Assembly (NCBI GenBank): GCA_900556555.1
Contig: USPF01000007.1
Span: 1-49,801, forward strand
Length of the DNA: 49,801 nt
From: an uncultured Blautia sp.
GTDB lineage: Bacteria; Bacillota; Clostridia; Lachnospirales; Lachnospiraceae
Reading direction: 5' to 3'
Below, piece by piece: positions 29,576-40,697 of this stretch. The notes below the pieces were generated by a model. The model saw nothing but the letters and a program-made list of their open reading frames with translations, searched no databases and was not told where the DNA came from. The translations under genes were made by a program, and so were the position numbers. The number at the start of each line of letters is the position of its first letter. The first letter of the stretch is position 1.

Positions 29576-29608
29576 CGGCTGGCTGATGTGGCCAGCCGTT
29601 GCTTTTTT
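29576..29608. terminator. Terminator between purC and the aminotransferase gene
   Basis: CGGCTGGC (29576-29583) and GCCAGCCG (29591-29598) form a perfect stem, followed by a T tract from 29603. It serves purC; the opposing gene ends at 29607. Confidence 0.85.
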
Positions 29609-30704
29609 ACAACCCCAATTCTTTTAAAGCATCCATCAGCTCGTCATTTTTCTCCGGGCTCATGATACAGAAACGGATAAAGGAATTATCCAGAAACGGG
29701 AAGGTAGAGCAGTCCCGGATCATCAGGCCCTTTCTAATGCAATGATCAAATACCATTTCAGAAGTCACATCTTCTCTCAAAATCTTCACCAAAAGAAAAT
29801 TAGAACAGGAAGGATATACTTTTACGTGCTCCCAGGTACTCATCAGTTCATACAGGCGGTTCCGCTCACTGGTAATCAGAGCTCTTGTTTTTTCGATATA
29901 TTCTTTATCTGAGAACATGATACATCCTGCGATTTCCGCCAGGCTGTTGATGGTCCAAGGATTCTTCTTGGTATTAATATATTTTAGCAGGTCAGGATTT
30001 CCGGTTACGGCATATCCGAGACGGAGACCGGGAGCTGCAAAGAACTTAGAAATTCCTCTCAGTACAATGAGGTTATTGTAATTATTAGTAAGAGGAATGG
30101 AGGAAATCTTGCTTCCAGCATCTGTAAATTCTTCATAGGTCTCATCTACCATAACAGAAATACCAAACTGCATGGCACGGTCCAGGATTTTCCGCATGTC
30201 TTTTCTTGTAATGGCTGTGGAAGTCGGATTGTTCGGATTACACAGTACCAGAAGATCCAGGCTGTCATTGAGCCGGCTGCAGAAATCTTCCACATTTATC
30301 TGGAATAAATCTTCTTCTTTTAAAGGATAATAAAGAGTCTGTCCTCCCTGCAGGGCAATCTCACGTTCATATTCTGAATAGGTAGGGCCTAAGATCAGGG
30401 CTTTCTGGGGCTGGGTAGTCTGAATAAACAGGGAAATCAGCTCAGTAGAACCATTTCCTACAATGATATTATCAAATTCAGCACCGGTATAGTCGCAGAT
30501 ACTCTTGCGAAGCTTTGTGTAGTCACGGTCAGGATAAGTAGAAATAGCATCTACATGCTTGGAAAGAGTATCCCTGAGCATGGGAGAGATGCCAAGAGGA
30601 TTGACGTTTGCAGAGAAACTGGTAATGTCCTCTTTTTTGATATGATAGATTTCTTCGATTTTTTCCAGGTCACTGCCATGGAAATGGTCTTTATGTTTCA
30701 GCAT
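29607..30704 (-). CDS. PLP-dependent aminotransferase of the HisC/CobD group
   Basis: 365 residues, fold type I. The substrate-binding start (HGSDLEKIEEIYHI...SFSANVNPLGIS) resembles both histidinol-phosphate aminotransferase and CobD threonine-phosphate decarboxylase. The nucleotide-cofactor loop NGSTELIS, the NPNNPTS block, DETYEEF and the PLP lysine in LRGISKFFAAPGLRLGYA are intact. Neither histidine nor cobalamin genes lie nearby, so the substrate cannot be fixed. The HGSDL and NVNPLG motifs lean towards CobD, yet many stand-alone relatives are of unknown function. It is monocistronic, convergent with purC and divergent from the DUF5717 gene. Confidence 0.75.
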   Translation of the reverse strand: MLKHKDHFHGSDLEKIEEIYHIKKEDITSFSANVNPLGISPMLRDTLSKHVDAISTYPDRDYTKLRKSICDYTGAEFDNIIVGNGSTELISLFIQTTQPQKALILGPTYSEYEREIALQGGQTLYYPLKEEDLFQINVEDFCSRLNDSLDLLVLCNPNNPTSTAITRKDMRKILDRAMQFGISVMVDETYEEFTDAGSKISSIPLTNNYNNLIVLRGISKFFAAPGLRLGYAVTGNPDLLKYINTKKNPWTINSLAEIAGCIMFSDKEYIEKTRALITSERNRLYELMSTWEHVKVYPSCSNFLLVKILREDVTSEMVFDHCIRKGLMIRDCSTFPFLDNSFIRFCIMSPEKNDELMDALKELGL

Positions 30705-30735: not shown

Positions 30736-30764
30736 TTGCACAGCAGACTGTTGTAGTGTATAAT
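30736..30764 (+). promoter_or_regulatory. Candidate promoter of the DUF5717 gene cluster
   Basis: TTGCAC (30736-30741), 17 bp, TATAAT (30759-30764). The -10 is perfect; the -35 matches only its first three bases. Confidence 0.5.
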
Positions 30765-30840
30765 CCATAGTAGCAGATTGTGGTCAAGGATTCAATATGG
30801 AATTCATAGTTACGATACGAGACAGGGTAAGGGTGATAAA

Positions 30841-33800
30841 TTGAAAACAAGAATGGAACAACTGATAAATGGAAGATTTGAGTATGATGTACCTGGACTG
30901 AAAGTGTCTGCAGGAGAAATCGTACTGGATACCCTGCCAGAGGAAAAGCTTAGGGGAGAGCTGGAATTCTGGGCAGAAGATCATAGAAGAATTAAGGGAA
31001 TGGCTTATTCCACTCACAGAAGATTTCTTTTAGGAAAAGAGAAATTTTCAGGAGAAACAGTACGGCTTCCCTATGGAATAGACGCAGAAGGCCTGGAAGG
31101 TCAGGATATCATTGAAGGAGAGATTGTATTAAGCACCAGTATAGGAGAATACAGGGTGCCTTTTTCAATTACTGTTAAGAAACCAGAGGTGCGTACTTCC
31201 CAGGGGGCAGTGCGGACACTGGAAGAGTTTGTAAATCTTGCAAAAGATGATTTCAGAGAGGCATATCAGTTATTTGCAGATGCCTCTTTTGCACAATTAT
31301 TGAAAGACAGGGAAGAATTGCTGCCTTATTATGAGTCTATGTCAAAAGCACCTGTTCCCTATCAGAACCTGGAAGAATTTCTCATAGGAGCAGGGCTGAA
31401 AAAGCCAGTATCCCTAAGTCTGGAAAAGGAGACCCTGGAGCTTTATGAGGTGCAGAGTTCCTTGAAAGATACTCTCCGGATCAGGCGGAGCGGATGGGGA
31501 TTTCTCCGTGCAGAGATTGAGACAGAGGGAGAGTTCCTGGAGGTGGAGAAAACATCTATCCAAGATGGGCATTTTATTGGCAGTGTCTATGATCTGGAAT
31601 ATATCATCCGCAGGGAATACCTGGGAAGAGGAAGAAATTTAGGCAGAATCCGGATAAAAACCGTATATGAGACTATAACCTATGAAATTACAGCATCGAA
31701 AAGCAGCCGTATTCAGGTCAATGTCACTGCATACGAGAAGAAAAAACGTCTGGGTGCAGCGAAGGAGCTTCTGAATCTACATCTTGGACGTATTGAGCCG
31801 GAGGCATGGAGCTGCCACATGCAGGACTTGCTGGGAGAATTAAAGGAAAATGGCTATTATTCTACGGAATGCCAGTTATTTGAATCCTATGTCTATCTGA
31901 TAAAAGGAGAGAAAGAGGAAGCAAGGAGACTTTTGGATGCACTGGAAAATAACCAGAAAGTGCATCAGGAAGAAGAACTGGAAGGTGCCTTTTTATATCT
32001 TAATGAGTATTCCCAAAGGAGCACCCAGTCAAGAGAAAATACTATTTCCAGACTCTACCAGCTCTATCAGCGGCGGGTGGACAGTGAACTGCTGTTATAT
32101 ATGATTTTCCAGATGGATGGCGAAGCACTGAGAACTCAGGCAAGGAAAATGTTCCTTCTGGAAGAACAGTACCGCACAGGATGCCGCAGTCCGTTTTTGT
32201 ATCTTATGGCATGCAAATTAGGTGCGGAAGACGGCTCTGTATTCCGCAAAATGAATGCGTTTACAGTGCAGGTATTTTTATTTGCAGAAAAGTATGGCAT
32301 TCTCACAGAAGAGATGGCCTTTCGGGCAGTGGACCTGGCAGGACAGATGAAAGGATTTTCACAAAAAGTGTACGAAATTCTGGAAACAGCCTACGAACTT
32401 TATCCTTCCTCACAGGCAGTCAAAGGAATCTGCCAGCTTATCATGAAAGGGGAACCCAGGAAGCAGGAATATTTCAGGTGGTATGAGCTGGCCGTGCTGT
32501 CAGAACTGAAAATCACAGGACTGTATGAATATTATATTGAGACCATGAGCAGGAATTACCAGAAGGTTCTGCCAAAGGTGATCCGTCTGTATTTTGGATA
32601 TAATAATACGCTAAGTGATAAGAAAAAAGCATTTGTGTACAGCAATGTAATTCGCAACAAAGACATTGATCCTGACACCTATCAGGCATACCGGAAAAAA
32701 ATGGAAGTCTTTGCCTGTGAGAAAATAAAAGAAGGAAGGATGAATGAGGATTTCGCTGTGGTTTACCAGGAGTTTTGCGTGGACTCTCAGGACGAAAATG
32801 TACGTGCAGCTCTTGCAAGGGTTTTATTCACACAGAGGATTTATTGTGATGACCCTAAGATCAGAAGGGTGATTGTCCGTCATGCATCCATGAAAAAAGA
32901 GCAGGTTTATGTCTGTGCAGACAAGACAGCCTATATCTCTCTTTATACAAAAGACGCAGCCGTGCTTTTTGAAGACAGTTGCCAGAGGCGGTATGTGGCA
33001 ACGGTGGATTATAATATTCATCCGCTTCTGGACGTAGAGGAGCTTTCCGGTAAATTATGCAAAGATGGTAAAAAGTATCCAGGAATGCTGCTTCATGTCT
33101 GCGGGGAACTGAAGCATGAAAATCCAGTGAATGAGCAGAATATAGAAAATTTCCAGGCTGTACTGGAACAGGAAGATTTTACGGATTCCTACAGGCAGGA
33201 AATCAGGAAACGTCTTTTGCTGTATTATGAATCACAGATGGATAACAGAAACCTGCGGGAATCTCTGAAAAACATGGATTTCAGAGAATTTGCAAGAGTG
33301 AACAAACGTCTTCTGATCACCATTCTTGTGAAACAGGATATGTTTCTTGGGGCTTATGATCTGGTATGCGAATATGGTTATGAAAACATTGATATCCCGG
33401 TTTTGCTCCGGCTTTGCAGCCAGATGATTTTAAACCTGGAATTTGAATACGAAGAAGAAATGCTTCTTCTTGCATCCTATATTGTAAGGGAAGGCGTGTA
33501 TGATGAAATCCTTCTCCGCTATCTGGTGAAACATTTTGAAGGCCCGGTGGATGAGATGGTATGGCTATGGGAACGTGCCATGGGCTTTGCGGTGGATTGT
33601 TATGGACTGGAAGAAAAGATTCTTTTATACAGCATGTTCACCAGATATGCACATCCCCAGGGGCTGAAAGTCCTTCAGGAATATATCAGCCAGGGGGGAA
33701 GAGAGCAGGTACTTCTTGCCTATCTTACCTTTGAATCTTATGAGTATTTTGTGGGAGAAGCCCCAAAGGACAACTTTTTGTTTGAGGCTCTGGAGAAAGT

Positions 33801-34380
33801 CCTGGAGCATCAGTGGGAGTGCGATATTATTTGCAGGCTTGCCCTTTTGAAGCATGATACAGAAGAAAACAACTGGGATGACAGAAAGATGAAACAGGCA
33901 GGCAAAATTTTGGAGGAATGTGAAGAAGAGCGGCTGAAATTTGCCTTTTTCCAGAAACTTCCGGAAGAACTGCTTCAGATATACCAGATGGATGATAAAC
34001 TGTTTGCGGAGTGTAAAGCAAAACCAGGTGCAAAAGTAACCATTCATTATCAGATAGAGCGGGAGCATGTGCTGTCTGAGGAAAAGACAGAGCCCATGAA
34101 AGAACGGTATCAGGGGATTTATAATAAGGATTTTGTCTTGTTTTATGGGGAAAAGCTCATGGTGTATTTTGTCATAGAGCAGGAAGGCAACAGGGAAATA
34201 ACAGAAAAACAGATACTTACAGTAGATAAGTCTGGTTTTACCGGAAGAAGTAAGTACCAGATGTTAAATGCCATGCTTCAGATGAAAGAAAGAGGACAGA
34301 CAGAGGATTTGTGCCGTATGGAAGAAGAGTATCTGAGACAGGAGCAGCAGATTGGGCAACTGTTCCCACTGATAGATTAA
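30841..34380 (+). CDS. Large uncharacterised protein, DUF5717 family
   Basis: 1179 residues from TTG 30841, chosen because AAGGG lies seven bases upstream; ATG 30853 is an alternative. I recognise it, from memory, as a DUF5717 protein of Lachnospiraceae. Residues 1-110 and about 205-300 look like two beta-sandwich modules (EGEIVLSTSIGEYRVPFSITVKKP; NLGRIRIKTVYETITYEIT). The rest (about 310-1100) is a long, mostly helical repeat-like array suggesting a solenoid, with a final beta-rich tail (GAKVTIHYQIEREH...KLMVYFVIEQEG). No signal peptide, membrane span or catalytic motif is evident, so a large cytosolic scaffold is the best description. It leads an operon with the DUF5716 and TPR-like genes, each with a strong ribosome site. 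Confidence 0.6.
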   Translation: MKTRMEQLINGRFEYDVPGLKVSAGEIVLDTLPEEKLRGELEFWAEDHRRIKGMAYSTHRRFLLGKEKFSGETVRLPYGIDAEGLEGQDIIEGEIVLSTSIGEYRVPFSITVKKPEVRTSQGAVRTLEEFVNLAKDDFREAYQLFADASFAQLLKDREELLPYYESMSKAPVPYQNLEEFLIGAGLKKPVSLSLEKETLELYEVQSSLKDTLRIRRSGWGFLRAEIETEGEFLEVEKTSIQDGHFIGSVYDLEYIIRREYLGRGRNLGRIRIKTVYETITYEITASKSSRIQVNVTAYEKKKRLGAAKELLNLHLGRIEPEAWSCHMQDLLGELKENGYYSTECQLFESYVYLIKGEKEEARRLLDALENNQKVHQEEELEGAFLYLNEYSQRSTQSRENTISRLYQLYQRRVDSELLLYMIFQMDGEALRTQARKMFLLEEQYRTGCRSPFLYLMACKLGAEDGSVFRKMNAFTVQVFLFAEKYGILTEEMAFRAVDLAGQMKGFSQKVYEILETAYELYPSSQAVKGICQLIMKGEPRKQEYFRWYELAVLSELKITGLYEYYIETMSRNYQKVLPKVIRLYFGYNNTLSDKKKAFVYSNVIRNKDIDPDTYQAYRKKMEVFACEKIKEGRMNEDFAVVYQEFCVDSQDENVRAALARVLFTQRIYCDDPKIRRVIVRHASMKKEQVYVCADKTAYISLYTKDAAVLFEDSCQRRYVATVDYNIHPLLDVEELSGKLCKDGKKYPGMLLHVCGELKHENPVNEQNIENFQAVLEQEDFTDSYRQEIRKRLLLYYESQMDNRNLRESLKNMDFREFARVNKRLLITILVKQDMFLGAYDLVCEYGYENIDIPVLLRLCSQMILNLEFEYEEEMLLLASYIVREGVYDEILLRYLVKHFEGPVDEMVWLWERAMGFAVDCYGLEEKILLYSMFTRYAHPQGLKVLQEYISQGGREQVLLAYLTFESYEYFVGEAPKDNFLFEALEKVLEHQWECDIICRLALLKHDTEENNWDDRKMKQAGKILEECEEERLKFAFFQKLPEELLQIYQMDDKLFAECKAKPGAKVTIHYQIEREHVLSEEKTEPMKERYQGIYNKDFVLFYGEKLMVYFVIEQEGNREITEKQILTVDKSGFTGRSKYQMLNAMLQMKERGQTEDLCRMEEEYLRQEQQIGQLFPLID

Positions 34381-34395
34381 AGGAGGGAAAATGGA

Positions 34396-35643
34396 ATGAA
34401 TGAGACTCGGAATATTATCGTAGGTTTGGAAATTGGAAAACTCCAGTCCCAGATCTGCTACTATGACAGGAAAGAAAAAGAACCCATTTCCATTTCCGTG
34501 AAGACAGGGAGCAATCAGTATCTGTTCCCAACCATGCTGTCTAAGAAAAAAGGAGAAGAAATCTGGCATTTCGGAATGGAGGCCCAGTATTTTTCAAAAA
34601 ACGAAGGCGAAATTTCTGTGAATGGGCTTTTGGGATTGTTTGGAAGCCAGGAAGAAATTGAAATCGATGGTATGAAGAGAAGACCAGAGGAGCTTCTGGA
34701 ACATTATCTAAGGGGATGTATTTCTTTGCTGGGGACAGCAGACCCGGCAAGACAGATCAAGGCTGTGATGATCACAGTGCCAAAGCTTACCAAGGCAATG
34801 GTAAAGGCTTTTTATGAGGCAGCAGCAAAGATGGGGTTTGACAGAAAACAGATCTTTCTCCAGGATTATGACGAAAGTTTTTATTATTATGTGATGAATC
34901 ACAGAAGAGATAACTGGAACAGGAAAACAGGATGGTTTCTTTTTGAGGAAAACCAGGTTTCTTTTGCAAGCTTGTCCATTGACAGCCAGAGAAGACCAAT
35001 CGTAGCCTACATTGAGCATGGTGTTACGGCAGAGCTTCCACAAGATCCGGTGGAAAGAGATGATCATTTCTACCGTCTGATTGCCAGATCCTGTGGAACA
35101 GAGCCATATTCCGGCATTTATATCGTAGGGGATGGATTTGACCAGGAATGGGCTGTCCGCTCCACGCCTTATTTGTGCAAAAACCAGCGGCATGTATATT
35201 ACGGGAACAATCTTTATGTGAAAGGTGCATGTTACGGTGCCAGAGAAAAATGCGATGAGGGCAATTTGAAGGGGTATTTATATTTAAGCCCTTCCCTGGT
35301 TCGAAATCATGTGGCAATGGAGATGATGGTCAATGGCTCCCCGAAGACTTACGTTCTGGCAGAAGCAGGAAAAAACTGGTATGAAATCCATACAGAGCTG
35401 GAACTGATTTTAGATGACAGGGATGACCTGGAATTTATTGTAACGCCCATGGATGGCGGAAACAGAACCAGATGCAGCATGAAACTGGATGGGCTGCCCA
35501 AACGTCCCAATAAGACGACAAGGCTTCGGGTGACAGTATCGTATGAGTCAGAGGAACTTTGTGTCATCCGGGCAGAAGACCTTGGTTTTGGGGAAATGTT
35601 CCCTTCAGAAGGGAAGGTCTGGACAGAGAAAGTATCGTGGTAA
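34396..35643 (+). CDS. DUF5716-type protein with degenerate Hsp70/actin-like ATPase fold
   Basis: 415 residues. The opening NIIVGLEIGKLQSQICYYDRKEKEPISI recalls the phosphate-1 loop of Hsp70/actin proteins, and KAVMITVPKLTKAMVKAFYEAAAKMGF followed by QDYDESFYYY resembles the segment leading to their second lobe. Later GIYIVGDGF and LYVKGACYGA match the adenosine and closing KGAxxxA motifs of Hsp70s. The usual D-x-G-T-T is replaced by E-I-G-K-L, and no D-x-G-G-G-T second phosphate loop is seen. The fold assignment is inferred; nucleotide hydrolysis is doubtful. The last ~90 residues add a beta domain. AAGGAGG lies nine bases before the start. Confidence 0.6.
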   Translation: MNETRNIIVGLEIGKLQSQICYYDRKEKEPISISVKTGSNQYLFPTMLSKKKGEEIWHFGMEAQYFSKNEGEISVNGLLGLFGSQEEIEIDGMKRRPEELLEHYLRGCISLLGTADPARQIKAVMITVPKLTKAMVKAFYEAAAKMGFDRKQIFLQDYDESFYYYVMNHRRDNWNRKTGWFLFEENQVSFASLSIDSQRRPIVAYIEHGVTAELPQDPVERDDHFYRLIARSCGTEPYSGIYIVGDGFDQEWAVRSTPYLCKNQRHVYYGNNLYVKGACYGAREKCDEGNLKGYLYLSPSLVRNHVAMEMMVNGSPKTYVLAEAGKNWYEIHTELELILDDRDDLEFIVTPMDGGNRTRCSMKLDGLPKRPNKTTRLRVTVSYESEELCVIRAEDLGFGEMFPSEGKVWTEKVSW

Positions 35644-35656
35644 GGAGGTCATAAAA

Positions 35657-36433
35657 ATGAGCGGCTATATTTTATGCCAGTTAAAAAGGGCAGATATGCC
35701 TTATTATATTGAAAATATCAGTACCAATATTTATAGCATGGAAGAGCTCTGCTATTACTTTTACCATAATATTTATTTGCTGGATGAAACCATCTTAAAT
35801 GAGCATTTATGTGACTGGCTCAGAAAAGAGCTGGGACTGGAAAAGCTTTACAAACGTCTATATAAAATATTAGAAGATGGTGCAGGAACTTCAGAATTTA
35901 TTTTAACCGTGTTTAAAGAAATCAATTATCTTACTCACAATGAATTTAAGAAGTTAAATGAACAGTTAAACCTTCTGGAGCTTCAGCCGGCTGTATTAAG
36001 GGAAAAGAAAAAAGGGGATTATCTGGCAGAAAATAAGATGTATGTCAATGCTATCCGTATCTACGAAAATGCCCTGCAAAAAGAAGATAAAGAAGGACTT
36101 GGAGATCAGTTCGGCGGAGGGATTTATCATAACATGGGATGTGCGTATCTGCATTTGTTCCAATTTGCAGATGCAGCAGAATGTTTCAAAAGAGCCTATC
36201 AGCTTCTGCATACGAAACAGGTGCTGCAGCATTACCTTCTGGCTTCCTATCTGGAGAATCCGGAAGCATTTCCAGCAGTGTGCATGGAAATGGGGATTGA
36301 TGGCAGACAGGAGCAAGAACTGACAGATATGCTCCTGGAAGCAGGAAAGAATGTTCAGCCTGTTTCCGGTGAACAGGCTGAGCAGATTTTGAACCGGTTT
36401 ATCCGGGATTACCATAGAAGCACGGGATTTTAG
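35657..36433 (+). CDS. TPR-like protein of the DUF5717/DUF5716 cluster
   Basis: 258 residues, cytosolic. The first ~110 residues form a helical domain (MSGYILCQLKRADMPYYIENISTNIYSMEELCYYFYHNIYLLDE) that I do not recognise. About residues 115-215 resemble tetratricopeptide repeats: a KKGDYLAENKMYVNAIRIYENALQ helix pair, then GIYHNMGCAYLHLFQFADAAECFKRAYQL. It is the third gene of the operon, with AAGGAGG before the ATG at 35657; a 38-codon upstream in-frame extension overlaps the preceding gene and is rejected. A role as adaptor for the other two proteins is inferred from position only. Confidence 0.65.
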   Translation: MSGYILCQLKRADMPYYIENISTNIYSMEELCYYFYHNIYLLDETILNEHLCDWLRKELGLEKLYKRLYKILEDGAGTSEFILTVFKEINYLTHNEFKKLNEQLNLLELQPAVLREKKKGDYLAENKMYVNAIRIYENALQKEDKEGLGDQFGGGIYHNMGCAYLHLFQFADAAECFKRAYQLLHTKQVLQHYLLASYLENPEAFPAVCMEMGIDGRQEQELTDMLLEAGKNVQPVSGEQAEQILNRFIRDYHRSTGF

Positions 36434-36507: not shown

Positions 36508-37941
36508 ATGAGTACAGACAGATATGTAAGCCCTTTATCTGAACGTTATGCAAGCAGGGAAATGCAGTATATCTTTTCTCCTGATATGAAATTCCGTACC
36601 TGGAGAAAACTGTGGATTGCCCTTGCAGAGACAGAGAAGGAGCTGGGACTGAATATTACCCAGGAACAGATTGATGAACTGAAAGCAAATGCGGACAACA
36701 TTAATTATGATGTAGCCAGAGAGAGAGAAAAAAAGGTACGTCATGATGTGATGTCTCATGTTTATGCCTATGGTGTACAGTGCCCAAAAGCAAAGGGAAT
36801 CATCCATCTGGGTGCTACAAGTTGTTATGTGGGTGACAATACCGATATTATTGTGATGACGGAAGCCTTGAAGCTGGTCCGCAAAAAGCTGGTAAATGTT
36901 CTTGCAGAACTGGCAAAATTTGCAGATGAGCATAAAGCCCAGCCTACCCTTGCATTTACTCATTTCCAGCCGGCCCAGCCTACGACTGTGGGAAAGAGAG
37001 CAACCCTGTGGATGCAGGAATTTATGCTGGATTTAGAGGATCTGGAGTATGTACTCAGTACCATGAAATTATTGGGCTCTAAGGGTACTACTGGTACACA
37101 GGCAAGCTTTTTAGAACTGTTTGACGGAGATCAGGAGACTATTGATAAGATTGACCCTATGATTGCGAAGAAAATGGGATTTCAGGAGTGCTATCCTGTA
37201 TCAGGGCAGACCTATTCCAGAAAAGTAGATACAAGAGTGATGAATGTACTGGCAGGAATTGCTGCAAGTGCCCACAAGTTCTCCAATGATATCCGCCTTC
37301 TGCAGCATTTAAAAGAAGTGGAAGAACCATTTGAAAAGAATCAGATTGGATCTTCTGCTATGGCTTATAAGAGGAATCCTATGAGAAGTGAGAGAATTGC
37401 TTCTTTGTCCAGATTTGTAATGGTAGATGCTTTAAATCCGGCCATTACTTCTGCCACACAGTGGTTTGAGAGAACACTGGATGATTCTGCAAATAAGCGT
37501 CTGTCCATACCGGAGGGATTCCTGGCAGTAGACGGTATCCTGGATCTGTGCCTAAATGTGGTTGACGGATTAGTTGTATATCCAAAGGTGATTGAGAAAC
37601 GCCTGAGAAGTGAACTTCCGTTTATGGCAACAGAAAATATCATGATGGATGCAGTAAAGGCAGGCGGAGACCGTCAGGAGCTGCATGAAAGAATCCGTGA
37701 GCTGTCCATGGAGGCAGGAAGAAATGTGAAGGAAGAAGGAAAAGAGAATAATCTTCTGGAGCTGATTGCAGCAGATCCGGCCTTTAATATGACATTGGAA
37801 GAACTGCAGAAAACCATGGATCCTGCAAAATACACAGGAAGAGCTGCCATTCAGGTTGAAAACTTCCTGAAAAATGTGGTAAATCCAGTGCTGGAATCAA
37901 ACAGAGAATTGCTGGGTATGACAGCAGAAATTAACGTATAA
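36508..37941 (+). CDS. purB: Adenylosuccinate lyase
   Basis: 477 residues. It cleaves SAICAR to AICAR and adenylosuccinate to AMP, releasing fumarate in both purine steps. The superfamily signature SSAMAYKRNPMRSE carries the flexible catalytic loop; upstream are HLGATSCYVGDNTDI and THFQPAQPTTVGKR with the conserved histidine. Length and pattern fit the larger (~475-residue) PurB group. With purC and purA in the same window, the pathway is encoded as scattered single genes rather than one pur operon. Confidence 0.95.
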   Translation: MSTDRYVSPLSERYASREMQYIFSPDMKFRTWRKLWIALAETEKELGLNITQEQIDELKANADNINYDVAREREKKVRHDVMSHVYAYGVQCPKAKGIIHLGATSCYVGDNTDIIVMTEALKLVRKKLVNVLAELAKFADEHKAQPTLAFTHFQPAQPTTVGKRATLWMQEFMLDLEDLEYVLSTMKLLGSKGTTGTQASFLELFDGDQETIDKIDPMIAKKMGFQECYPVSGQTYSRKVDTRVMNVLAGIAASAHKFSNDIRLLQHLKEVEEPFEKNQIGSSAMAYKRNPMRSERIASLSRFVMVDALNPAITSATQWFERTLDDSANKRLSIPEGFLAVDGILDLCLNVVDGLVVYPKVIEKRLRSELPFMATENIMMDAVKAGGDRQELHERIRELSMEAGRNVKEEGKENNLLELIAADPAFNMTLEELQKTMDPAKYTGRAAIQVENFLKNVVNPVLESNRELLGMTAEINV

Positions 37942-37970
37942 ACAGGTGTGCAGCCTGGCACATCTTATCA

Positions 37971-37992
37971 GGGCGGAGAATGCCGCCCTTTT
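37971..37992 (+). terminator. Short intrinsic terminator after purB
   Basis: GGGCGG-AGAATG-CCGCCC followed by TTTTGTTG. The stem is short but all G-C. Confidence 0.55.
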
Positions 37993-38035
37993 GTTGTATT
38001 CAGGCAGAGAAAGAAGAGAAAAGGAGAGGTTTTGT

Positions 38036-39319
38036 ATGAACCAGGAGAAAAAAGGAAGAGCCATAGCACTGCTTCCTATCGGAGTGTTTTTAGTGATTTT
38101 TATCGGTGCGGGAGTCTTGTTCCATGACTTTTATACCATGCCTGCGATTGTAGGCTTTCTCATTGCATTGATCGTAGCCTTTTTACAGAATAAGCGGCTC
38201 CGCTTTGCAGACAAGCTGACCATCGTATCAAAAGGAATCGGGGAAGAGAATATTGTGACCATGTGCCTGATCTTTCTGGCAGCAGGTGCATTTTCCGGAA
38301 CCATTCAGGCAGCAGGCGGGGTAGAGAGTACCGTTAATCTTGGACTTTCTATTATGCCGTCTTCCATTGCTGTAGTAGGACTTTTTGTTATCGGATGCTT
38401 CATTTCTGTTTCTATGGGAACATCGGTTGGAACTATCACTGCCATGACACCGATTGGTGTGGGAATTGCAGAGAAAACAGGGATTGCCATGCCAATCTGT
38501 GTAGGTGCAGTTGTCTGTGGTGCCATGTTTGGAGATAACTTGTCCATGATTTCTGATACAACTATCGCAGCCGTAAGAACCCAGGGCTGTGAGATGAAAG
38601 ATAAGTTTAAAGAGAACTTTTTGATCGTTCTTCCTGCAGCGATTATTACTGCGGTTCTGTTTTTCTTCATGGCAAGAGGAAATGCAGGAGATATCCAGGG
38701 AAATCTGGAATATGATATCATCAAGGTGATACCGTATCTGGTTGTTCTGATCGGTGCACTGATTGGTATTAATGTATTTGTGATTCTCATTGCAGGAACG
38801 GTACTGGCAGCAATTGTAGGTGTTGGAACAGGAGCTTTTGCTATTGGTGAATTATTCCAGAAAATGGGTGCAGGAGTTACCAGTATGTATGATATTACCG
38901 TTATTTCCATTATTGTGGCTGCAATCGTGGCTCTTGTAAAGGAATACGGCGGTATTGAGTTTATTCTTAAACTGATTAAAAAGAATATCAACGGTCCAAA
39001 AGGCGGGGAATTTGGTATCTCTGTACTGGCTCTTTTAGTAGACTGCTGTACTGCCAACAATACAGTAGCCATTGTTATGGCTGGTCCGATCGCAAAAGAA
39101 ATCAGTGATGAGTTTGGCGTTTCTGCAAAGAGAAGTGCATCTCTTCTTGATATTTTTGCATCTGTGGGACAGGGAATGATTCCTTACGGTGCCCAGCTTC
39201 TCACAGCAGCAAGTCTTTCCGCACTGTCACCGGTACAGATTATGCCGTATCTGTTTTATCCGATGCTTATGGGTGTAAGTGCAGTGCTGTTTATTCTGTT
39301 TAGAAGAAGACAGGCATAG
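38036..39319 (+). CDS. NhaC-family Na+/H+ antiporter or related ion/substrate exchanger
   Basis: 427 residues, very hydrophobic with about ten to eleven membrane segments. The MGTSVGTITAMTPIGVGIAEKTGIAM and GAMFGDNLSMISDTTIAAVRTQGCEM blocks match the NhaC group of the ion transporter superfamily, and a second-half repeat (VDCCTANNTVAIVMAGPIAKEI) is present. Related proteins exchange Na+ with H+ or with malate/lactate; the true substrate is not visible. The start at 38036 has AAGGAGAGG upstream; an in-frame ATG at 37946 precedes the terminator and is rejected. It stands between purB and purA, probably by chance. Confidence 0.85.
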   Translation: MNQEKKGRAIALLPIGVFLVIFIGAGVLFHDFYTMPAIVGFLIALIVAFLQNKRLRFADKLTIVSKGIGEENIVTMCLIFLAAGAFSGTIQAAGGVESTVNLGLSIMPSSIAVVGLFVIGCFISVSMGTSVGTITAMTPIGVGIAEKTGIAMPICVGAVVCGAMFGDNLSMISDTTIAAVRTQGCEMKDKFKENFLIVLPAAIITAVLFFFMARGNAGDIQGNLEYDIIKVIPYLVVLIGALIGINVFVILIAGTVLAAIVGVGTGAFAIGELFQKMGAGVTSMYDITVISIIVAAIVALVKEYGGIEFILKLIKKNINGPKGGEFGISVLALLVDCCTANNTVAIVMAGPIAKEISDEFGVSAKRSASLLDIFASVGQGMIPYGAQLLTAASLSALSPVQIMPYLFYPMLMGVSAVLFILFRRRQA

Positions 39320-39419
39320 TGGGAAAAATTTCTTAAAAAAATTCTTTATTTCTGTATTGAATTGTAGTATTATACTTTAGTCAAAGAAAACCAGTGCAGG
39401 AATACAGGAGGAATAAAAG

Positions 39420-40697
39420 ATGGTAAAAGCAGTTGTAGGAGCAAACTGGGGAGATGAAGGAAAAGGCAAGATTACAGATATGCTGGCTCAGGAAGCAGAT
39501 ATTGTAGTACGTTTCCAGGGTGGTGCAAATGCAGGACATACAATCGTAAACAAATACGGTAAATTTGCACTCCATTCCCTTCCTTCCGGTGTATTTAATG
39601 AGAATACCACAAGCATCATCGGCAATGGTGTGGCATTGAACATTCCGGTTTTGATGAATGAGATTCAGTCCATTGTGGAAAAAGGTGTTCCTATGCCGGA
39701 TATCAAAGTATCCGACCGGGCACAGATTGTAATGTCTTACCATATTAAATTTGATGAGTACGAAGAAGAACGTCTGGCAGGAAAATCTTTCGGCTCTACA
39801 AAATCAGGAATTGCACCATTTTATTCTGATAAATTTGCAAAAATAGGTTTTCAGGTAAGTGAGCTTTTCCAGGAGGAAGAAGCACTGCGTGAAAAAGCAG
39901 AAAACATCTGTGAAAAGAAGAATATTCTGCTGGAACATTTATACCACAAACCATTATTAAAGGCAGAAGATATCGTGAAAGAGCTGAAACAGTACAGGGA
40001 AATCATAGCACCTTATGTATGTGATGTTTCTACTCTGTTGTGGAATGCATTGAAAGAAGGAAAAGAAATCCTTCTGGAAGGACAGCTTGGTTCCTTAAAA
40101 GACCCGGATCACGGAATTTATCCTATGGTGACTTCGTCTTCCACACTGGCTGCCTATGGTGCCGTGGGAGCAGGAATTCCTCCTTATGAGATTAAAAAGA
40201 TTATTACTGTATGTAAGGCTTATTCCAGTGCCGTGGGAGCAGGTGCCTTTGTATCTGAAATTTTCGGAGAAGAGGCAGATGAATTAAGACGCAGAGGCGG
40301 TGACGGCGGAGAGTATGGTGCCACAACAGGACGTCCAAGACGTATGGGATGGTTTGACTGTGTAGCTTCTAAGTATGGCTGCCGTGTTCAGGGAACTACA
40401 GATGTGGTATTTACGGTATTGGATGTTCTTGGTTATTTGGATGAAATCCCTGTTTGTGTGGCATATGAGATTGACGGGGAGATCACCACAGAATTTCCGA
40501 CTACTTCTTTACTGGAAAAAGCAAAACCAGTCTTTGAGGTATTGCCGGGATGGAAGAGTGATATCAGAGGTATCCGTAAATACGAAGAACTGCCGGAAAA
40601 TTGCCGCAGGTATATTGAGTTTGTAGAAGAAAAACTGGGATTTCCGATTACCATGGTATCAAATGGTCCTGGAAGAGAGGACATTATTTACAGATAA
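39420..40697 (+). CDS. purA: Adenylosuccinate synthetase
   Basis: 425 residues. It joins IMP and aspartate with GTP, the first committed step to AMP. The GTP-binding start VVGANWGDEGKGKITDML (4-21) and QGGANAGHTIV (39-49), GQLGSLKDPDHGIYPMVTSS and TGRPRRMGWFD are all present. GQLGSLKDPDHG is a variant of the usual G-A-Q-G-x-x-L-D-x-D-x-G-T-Y-P motif and marks a divergent PurA subgroup. AGGAGGAATAAAAG precedes the ATG. The following gene lies 780 bases away. Confidence 0.95.
   Translation: MVKAVVGANWGDEGKGKITDMLAQEADIVVRFQGGANAGHTIVNKYGKFALHSLPSGVFNENTTSIIGNGVALNIPVLMNEIQSIVEKGVPMPDIKVSDRAQIVMSYHIKFDEYEEERLAGKSFGSTKSGIAPFYSDKFAKIGFQVSELFQEEEALREKAENICEKKNILLEHLYHKPLLKAEDIVKELKQYREIIAPYVCDVSTLLWNALKEGKEILLEGQLGSLKDPDHGIYPMVTSSSTLAAYGAVGAGIPPYEIKKIITVCKAYSSAVGAGAFVSEIFGEEADELRRRGGDGGEYGATTGRPRRMGWFDCVASKYGCRVQGTTDVVFTVLDVLGYLDEIPVCVAYEIDGEITTEFPTTSLLEKAKPVFEVLPGWKSDIRGIRKYEELPENCRRYIEFVEEKLGFPITMVSNGPGREDIIYR

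Follow-up and report, generated by a model that had tools for sequence, protein, structure and literature searches.

A DUF5717-DUF5716-TPR gene module of Lachnospiraceae best read as a collapsed multi-Hsp70 operon

Ssz1 of the yeast ribosome-associated complex (RAC) is an Hsp70 relative that has no lid and does not hydrolyze ATP; its beta-domain is kept and is stabilized by the tail of its partner, and the protein binds ATP, as stated in the extract of PMC7083937. Conflict systems centered on GAP1-N2 GTPases, found mainly in actinobacteria and firmicutes, combine HSP70, GrpE and TPR or FNIII proteins, and a subset has a second HSP70 without the peptide-binding domain (Kaur et al. 2020, PMC7159879, in extract). 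To judge from that extract, this HSP70-GrpE-TPR/FNIII arrangement is the closest published genomic theme to the locus described here; DnaK-, HscA- and HscC-type Hsp70 systems with GrpE are a further point of comparison. Here we analyzed a three-gene module encoding DUF5717, DUF5716 and a TPR protein in a 49,801-nucleotide stretch of contig USPF01000007.1 (assembly GCA_900556555.1) from an uncultured Blautia sp., which we call the window (Table 1). We read the three genes as encoding a chaperone-like scaffold complex left by the collapse of a multi-Hsp70 machine driven by ATP, and put the probability of this reading at roughly 0.6.

Lachnospiraceae are among the dominant human gut commensals. 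Although the module is near-universal in the Lachnospiraceae sampled, neither Pfam nor the literature searched assigns it a function. In Pfam, DUF5717 (PF18984, PF18983) and DUF5716 (PF18980) are families without known function; their connection with Hsp70 and with a larger operon comes from the present analysis. Judged by titles and abstract starts, a search on DUF5716/DUF5717 returned one unrelated paper and no description of the module, and searches on Lachnospiraceae/Lachnospirales signatures, Hsp70 operons and transposon essentiality returned nothing on it. The joint identity of these families as a reduced multi-Hsp70 operon therefore appears new within the literature searched.

A conserved trio and a larger Hsp70 operon

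In the window, DUF5717 matched PF18984 (E 5.2e-247, residues 1-868) and PF18983 (E 1.5e-95, residues 871-1175), and DUF5716 matched PF18980, the DUF5716 C-terminal family (E 4.6e-107). The respective scores of 822, 320 and 358 bits, against curated cut-offs of 25, 25 and 34.7, place both proteins in the families that the original prediction had named. For the third gene, only TPR repeats rose above the cut-off (TPR_2, E 4.4e-7), in agreement with the earlier guess of a TPR-like protein. An NCBIfam scan of the three genes gave nothing near a cut-off.

A DUF5716 profile scan of genome contigs gave 106 confirmed places, the best 80 of which formed our locus set. Profiles of all three proteins placed DUF5717, DUF5716 and the TPR gene adjacent, in this order and on one strand, in 79 of the 80 loci (in some, DUF5717 is truncated by the contig end); the grouping is therefore not due to chance. 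The median gap was 12 bases at both junctions, taken from the 67 and 78 of the 79 three-gene loci where a start pattern was found (L058 is fused). At six loci (L058 and L192-L196) DUF5716 and the TPR protein were fused in one frame. On a quick midpoint-rooted tree the fusion label changed three times, with two changes forced by well supported branches, and these may be separate gains or a gain with loss. The earlier proposal that the three proteins work together is supported by the shared order, the six fusions and the same gene order in the larger operons described below; homologues were not mostly apart from one another.

The module is also widespread and fast-evolving. DUF5717_N was present in 245/250 genomes from Lachnospiraceae, the family of Blautia parvula, and in 5/398 genomes across the phylum, including that of Blautia parvula itself; DUF5716 was present in 145/150 family genomes. 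Among the matches listed in family genomes, nearly all DUF5717 frames were open, without stops. The closest named relatives of the window locus were Blautia, with 79% to a Blautia hansenii locus. Across the 34 loci with full-length versions of all five proteins compared (among the 80 loci and the window), mean identity was 47-50% for the module versus 86-88% for PurA and PurB. Over these loci, DUF5716 and DUF5717 distances correlated at 0.947 (partial 0.70), and TPR distances correlated with those of DUF5716 and DUF5717 at 0.87 and 0.89 (partial 0.30 and 0.37).

Among 295 genomes of the order, we observed DUF5716 profile matches in 142 and DUF5717 matches in 125, many of them distant. We read 51 far places (L187, a 100-base stretch, was excluded), picked for having operon parts on one contig, so that the linkage describes a selected sample. 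As far as each contig extends, the order was N-C-H1-G-H2-H3-H4-T, where N and C are the DUF5717 halves, H1 to H4 denote Hsp70s, G a protein with a GrpE domain at its end and T the TPR protein. All eight genes stood in order at 16 loci, and likewise at L124 with H4 and T each split; nine loci covered C through T, and in several of these N was fused into C; and the remainder were partial, without some recognized gene or three-gene (L176 and L180 carry the last label because their contigs are partial), with the same relative order throughout. H1 and G were both present at 44 loci. Pfam scans of L143 matched HSP70 in H1 (E 3e-75), H3 (7e-61) and H4 (8e-95), a von Willebrand A (vWA) domain in H4 and a GrpE domain in G (E 4.7e-9); H2 matched both DUF5716_C (1.7e-23) and HSP70 (5e-20). 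The short G of L124 matched GrpE over about half its length (E 5.4e-12).

The three-gene module is a colinear subset of this order: N and C (fused), H2 and T. In an Hsp70 tree of 79 rows, with the root placed on DnaK and HscC, H2 and DUF5716 formed one branch (support 100), sister to H3 (100), and the H2 proteins of L124 and L142, which belong to larger operons, branched next to DUF5716. Rows dropped from the Hsp70 comparison were H2 of L138 and L141, Hsp70 open reading frames (ORFs) of at most 430 aa and one H4 fragment of L124. We consider the origin of the module from a larger Hsp70 operon well supported; on the sequence comparisons, it is best read as a collapse of the eight-gene operon. 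Because DUF5716 nests among intact Hsp70s, we infer loss rather than build-up.

We then followed the genes that such a collapse would have removed. G was found in 108/295 order genomes, 94 after setting aside 14 weak matches (E above 1e-6). No G protein was found in 150 family genomes, 10 of which gave weak matches (best E 2.5e-8): two were partial, and the other eight covered the GrpE end, their frames being 206-263 aa long; 148 class genomes gave 28 weak matches alone, in frames of 172-335 aa, mostly GrpE-sized. Of the 49 order genomes that scored best for DUF5716 (E at most 2.6e-29), G653 alone has G, and G575 and G806 gave weak matches. Profiles of H1, H4 and G matched none of the ORFs of the 80 loci and the window; the H3 profile matches there were, among those listed, DUF5716 itself. 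In nine module-bearing whole genomes, PF00012 found DnaK-like Hsp70s, a second long one in five genomes, and MreB-sized frames; a 524-aa PF00012 frame in G001 was a weak match. A further Hsp70-family frame (503 aa, E 1.6e-52) lies at G403:C12:29185-30255, away from a divergent three-gene module.

A length difference within the Hsp70 fold ran parallel to the presence of G. Lobe IIB of the nucleotide-binding domain (NBD) lies in the segment that runs from the phosphate-2 motif to the adenosine motif. This segment measured 106-150 residues in 45/45 larger-operon H2 proteins (the contig of one, L180, shows H2 and H3 only) and 52-64 residues in 19/19 three-gene sequences examined. For four of these 19 (L138-L141) their own genome gave no G match, and for the other 15 the absence is taken from the family sample. 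We take lobe IIB to be the GrpE-binding lobe of the Hsp70 NBD. In the sequences compared, the GrpE-binding lobe is thus absent where the GrpE-domain gene is.

Neighboring genes point to a corresponding chromosomal place. A relative of the CobD/HisC-like aminotransferase that diverges from the window module occurred at 23/44 eight-gene loci (one just 27% identical) and at 33/80 three-gene loci. A gene that we take to be ValS-like was found at 7/44 eight-gene loci and at the three-gene locus L140, downstream where seen. In other families of the order, the eight-gene operon thus stands, at its marker-bearing loci, in a place that corresponds to that of the module; many of its loci adjoin the same marker gene.

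Several variants were seen among the far loci. At L124:4343-6384, H4 is divided between two ORFs and the T matches lie on a pair of short ones; the H2 of this locus is one of those branching next to DUF5716. N and C are also fused in some eight-gene loci, as at L128:4539-8516 (1326 aa) and L142:6724-9741 (1006 aa), perhaps separately from the Lachnospiraceae DUF5717 fusion. In L170-L172 the gene after H4 encodes, in place of T, a protein of 308-311 aa with no match to the T profile. A ninth gene follows T or its replacement in 12/51 loci and encodes a coiled-coil protein of 362-475 aa, in which two hydrophobic stretches were seen by eye, a probable membrane protein. The 12 include the three-gene loci L138 and L141, where the gene lies 3' of the module at L138:6554-7978 and L141:6805-8115. 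A search of the ORFs in the 80 DUF5716 loci and in the window did not find the gene, which may therefore be lost or moved there. Given this gene in some operon forms, the assembly that the original prediction placed in the cytosol may or may not be cytosolic.

DUF5716 and its predicted scaffold

The predicted structure of DUF5716 matched the nucleotide-binding and beta substrate-binding domains (SBD-beta) of DnaK, an actin-like NBD being followed by an SBD-beta-like sandwich. The H3 profile, built on intact Hsp70s, matched window DUF5716 at E 8e-18. In the Pfam scan the same protein gave PF18980 alone and no PF00012 match, and the DUF5716 profile found no Hsp70 among Protein Data Bank (PDB) sequences at E up to 1; we therefore base the link to Hsp70 on the fold comparison and the operon Hsp70s, and not on the PDB sequence search. 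The sole PDB sequence match, CTF19 (E 0.28), was set aside as a chance match.

We observed that residues of the ATP site were lost from DUF5716 and H2. K70 was retained in 0/17 DUF5716 and 0/49 H2 rows versus 43/44 H1 (one alignment gap), 42/42 H3 and 37/37 H4 rows, and T199, of the GGGT motif, in no DUF5716 or H2 row versus all rows of H1, H3 and H4. T11 was kept in none of the 17 DUF5716 rows, and one had T at the T12 position. The SBD-alpha lid was absent, with 14-20 residues beyond SBD-beta in DUF5716 versus 150-154 in DnaK, and alignment to the reference DnaK row showed DUF5716 to be without the NBD lobe IIB stretch. The SBD-beta sandwich was kept, and its invariant residues include W328, Y329 and E330. 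Overall, DUF5716 looks like a pseudo-Hsp70, with lid and catalytic residues absent from its aligned sequence. The degenerate Hsp70/actin-like fold that had been guessed is thus confirmed by the fold comparison and the ATP-site alignment.

Two DUF5716 genes were unusual. At L079:8506-10398 the protein carries a repetitive C-terminal tail of about 200 residues rich in Pro, Ala, Glu and His, followed by the TPR gene. At L197:4326-5923 it is spread over two overlapping ORFs, through a frameshift, a sequencing error or a true split.

DUF5717 was modeled with AlphaFold2 (AF2) at pLDDT 87.0 and pTM 0.57, and the beta-sandwich plus long helical array expected of it was found in the predicted structure. 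In fold comparison its Ig-like tandems matched domains of ciliary central apparatus and centrosome scaffolds. The helical array also matched OGT, IFT, Ski3 and Ctr9, at the background level of helical repeats, and no function was read from these matches.

Proposed function and alternatives

Ssz1, which has no lid, does not hydrolyze ATP and keeps its beta-domain (PMC7083937, in extract), is the closest analogue in mechanism, and this analogy favors a nucleotide-independent holding or docking complex; a chaperone-like scaffold that works as Ssz1 does is, by analogy, the most likely function. The eight-gene form combines three Hsp70s whose ATP sites are intact with a built-in GrpE domain and a pseudo-Hsp70, on an Ig/solenoid scaffold, which suggests an ATP-driven machine for one client or site. 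The form in the window would have given up the ATP-using parts and retained scaffold, pseudo-Hsp70 and adaptor. We propose that DUF5717, with its Ig-like domains and helical array, would be a platform, the TPR protein an adaptor and DUF5716, independent of nucleotide, a docking module or a peptide clamp that stays permanently open. A partner's tail may occupy the beta-domain of DUF5716, as Zuo1 does in Ssz1, and the conserved TPR C-terminal tail YHRSTGF is a candidate intrinsic ligand. Without running an ATP cycle itself, such a complex could keep hold of a client or assemble it, and might pass it to the housekeeping DnaK.

The likeness has limits. Ssz1 binds ATP, going by the extract of PMC7083937, and DUF5716 is without equivalents of K70 and T199 and additionally without the stretch that holds the GrpE-binding lobe; Zuo1, the RAC partner of Ssz1, has a J domain, and Pfam scans found none in the window proteins or L143. 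DnaK-, HscA- and HscC-type systems share common ancestry with the module through H2 and H3, and the eight-gene operon, like them, has intact Hsp70s and a GrpE domain. Unlike them, it brings three intact Hsp70 paralogues, one pseudo-Hsp70, a scaffold and a TPR protein into one operon, with no J domain in the scanned operon L143.

Several observations weigh against the reading of the module as a collapsed, nucleotide-independent chaperone complex. The position of D8 is D or E in 16/17 DUF5716 rows, the adenosine-motif glycine is present in 17/17, and D194 is kept in 15/16 H2 rows, so DUF5716 may still bind nucleotide. The invariant E160 of DUF5716 sits two columns off the E171 column, and their equivalence is ambiguous. 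The Hsp70 tree is a quick one with long branches, and such joins may be false; the whole-genome check for loss of H1, H3 and H4 covers nine genomes. One locus breaks the trio: L031 has DUF5716-TPR alone, and its DUF5717 lies elsewhere in the genome (L186), beside a CobD-like aminotransferase. TPR distances also track PurB (partial r 0.61), and the co-evolution of the TPR protein with DUF5716 and DUF5717 is therefore not specific. At a pTM of 0.57, the modeled domain arrangement of DUF5717 is uncertain, and the lack of a J domain in the operons of the window and L143 is unusual for an Hsp70 machine. Both the physical complex and its function are what we infer.

We weighed this reading against four others. 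A purely structural or cytoskeletal assembly, in which the actin-like NBD would be an architectural block on the solenoid scaffold, possibly at the membrane and with no chaperone activity, would fit the loss of ATP-site residues, the resemblance of the Ig-like tandems to ciliary central-apparatus and centrosome scaffold domains, and the coiled-coil protein with two hydrophobic stretches 3' of some operon forms. However, SBD-beta is retained with W328, Y329 and E330 invariant, the matches to eukaryotic scaffold folds are generic, and the coiled-coil gene was not found among the ORFs of the 80 DUF5716 loci and the window; we consider such an assembly unlikely. Quite unlikely as well is a role of DUF5716 as co-chaperone of the housekeeping DnaK, for instance an exchange factor of the Hsp110 kind or an allosteric partner, brought to one site by DUF5717 and the TPR protein: Hsp110 keeps ATP binding, whereas DUF5716 has no K70 and T199 equivalents, and the sequence offers no evidence of a contact with DnaK.

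That HSP70, GrpE and TPR/FNIII proteins adjoin GAP1-N2 GTPases in the extract of PMC7159879, as HSP70, GrpE and TPR genes are grouped here, could suggest a related biological-conflict (defense) system. We think this very improbable, given that neither the three module proteins of the window nor the eight operon proteins of L143 show a GTPase domain in Pfam scans, that PADLOC gave no match for five L143 proteins and weak matches for three, and that near-universal presence in one family (245/250), unlike the conflict systems as extracted, and PurB- and PurA-like neighbors (51 and 38 of 80) are unlike a defense island. A decaying remnant with little function would account for the fast evolution (47-50% identity versus 86-88% for PurA and PurB over the 34 loci), for two or more separate DUF5717 matches in some genomes and for the split DUF5716 of L197. 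It is hard to reconcile with DUF5717 in 245/250 and DUF5716 in 145/150 genomes, with DUF5717 frames nearly all free of stops among the matches listed, and with many invariant columns in all three proteins, and we regard it as scarcely credible.

Recognized as a pseudo-Hsp70 (DUF5716) and as a pair of fused subunits from a larger chaperone operon (DUF5717), two domains of unknown function become testable machine parts. The series from eight to three genes, in which H2 has already lost K70 and T199 and the GrpE lobe is absent where G is, would be a natural experiment on the ways an Hsp70 machine may give up its ATP cycle. More tentatively, and with our confidence falling somewhat short of even, the order may harbor a class of multi-Hsp70 machine without earlier description, cut to a nucleotide-free core in Lachnospiraceae that still does lineage-essential assembly or holding. 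That core would be a chaperone derived from Hsp70 that has stopped using ATP. The parts of the full machine would be an Ig-like/solenoid scaffold, three active Hsp70s (one with vWA), a pseudo-Hsp70, a GrpE domain, a TPR adaptor and, at some loci, a membrane anchor.

Features of the window locus

Table 1. Coordinates of the module and flanking features in the window.
Feature	Position	Strand	Remarks
DUF5717 gene	30841..34380	+	TTG start, 1179 aa, predicted scaffold-like; Pfam, AF2 model
Ig-like (PapD/ASH-type) beta-sandwich 1	30892..31182	+	DUF5717 residues 18-114; AF2 model
Beta-sandwich 2	31408..31710	+	DUF5717 residues 190-290; AF2 model
Helical repeat array	31726..33981	+	DUF5717 residues 296-1047, interrupted by small beta domain 664-728; AF2 model
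C-terminal beta region	33997..34221	+	DUF5717 residues 1053-1127, then two helices; AF2 model
DUF5716 gene	34396..35643	+	415 aa, putative lidless pseudo-Hsp70
Actin/Hsp70-type NBD	34396..35289	+	DUF5716 residues 1-298; without stretch matching reference DnaK row residues 184-263
SBD-beta-like sandwich	35305..35640	+	DUF5716 residues 304-415; protein terminates there
TPR protein gene	35657..36433	+	ATG start, 258 aa; Pfam
TPR N-terminal region	35657..36001	+	Residues 1-115, strongly conserved; matched too in T of eight-gene operons
TPR C-terminal tail YHRSTGF	36410..36430	+	Residues 252-258; Y252, H253, T256 invariant in 36 rows
Shine-Dalgarno-like AAGGGTGAT	30829-30837	+	Ahead of DUF5717 gene; weaker than the other two
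Shine-Dalgarno-like AAGGAGGG	34380..34387	+	Ahead of DUF5716; strong
Shine-Dalgarno-like AAGGAGGT	35642..35649	+	Ahead of TPR gene; strong
CobD/HisC-like aminotransferase	29607..30704	-	Divergent, marker of chromosomal place, outside module

The three genes are adjacent on one strand, and gaps of 15 bases (DUF5717-DUF5716) and 13 bases (DUF5716-TPR) bear out the tight packing described in the original prediction. The strong ribosome site claimed for each gene held for AAGGAGGG and AAGGAGGT and was overstated for AAGGGTGAT. A promoter scan placed a promoter-like site at 30737-30764 (10/12 match), in a scan with no excess of such sites (22 versus a mean of 20.4 in shuffles). Past position 36433 the scan listed no + strand terminator-like site ahead of the following gene (36508), and transcription may therefore read through into it. 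The divergent aminotransferase scored 287.0 bits with TIGR01140, slightly below the cut-off of 290.55. On the 3' side of the module, positions 36508-40697 hold ORFs that we take, from their sequence, to be PurB-like, membrane antiporter-like and PurA-like.

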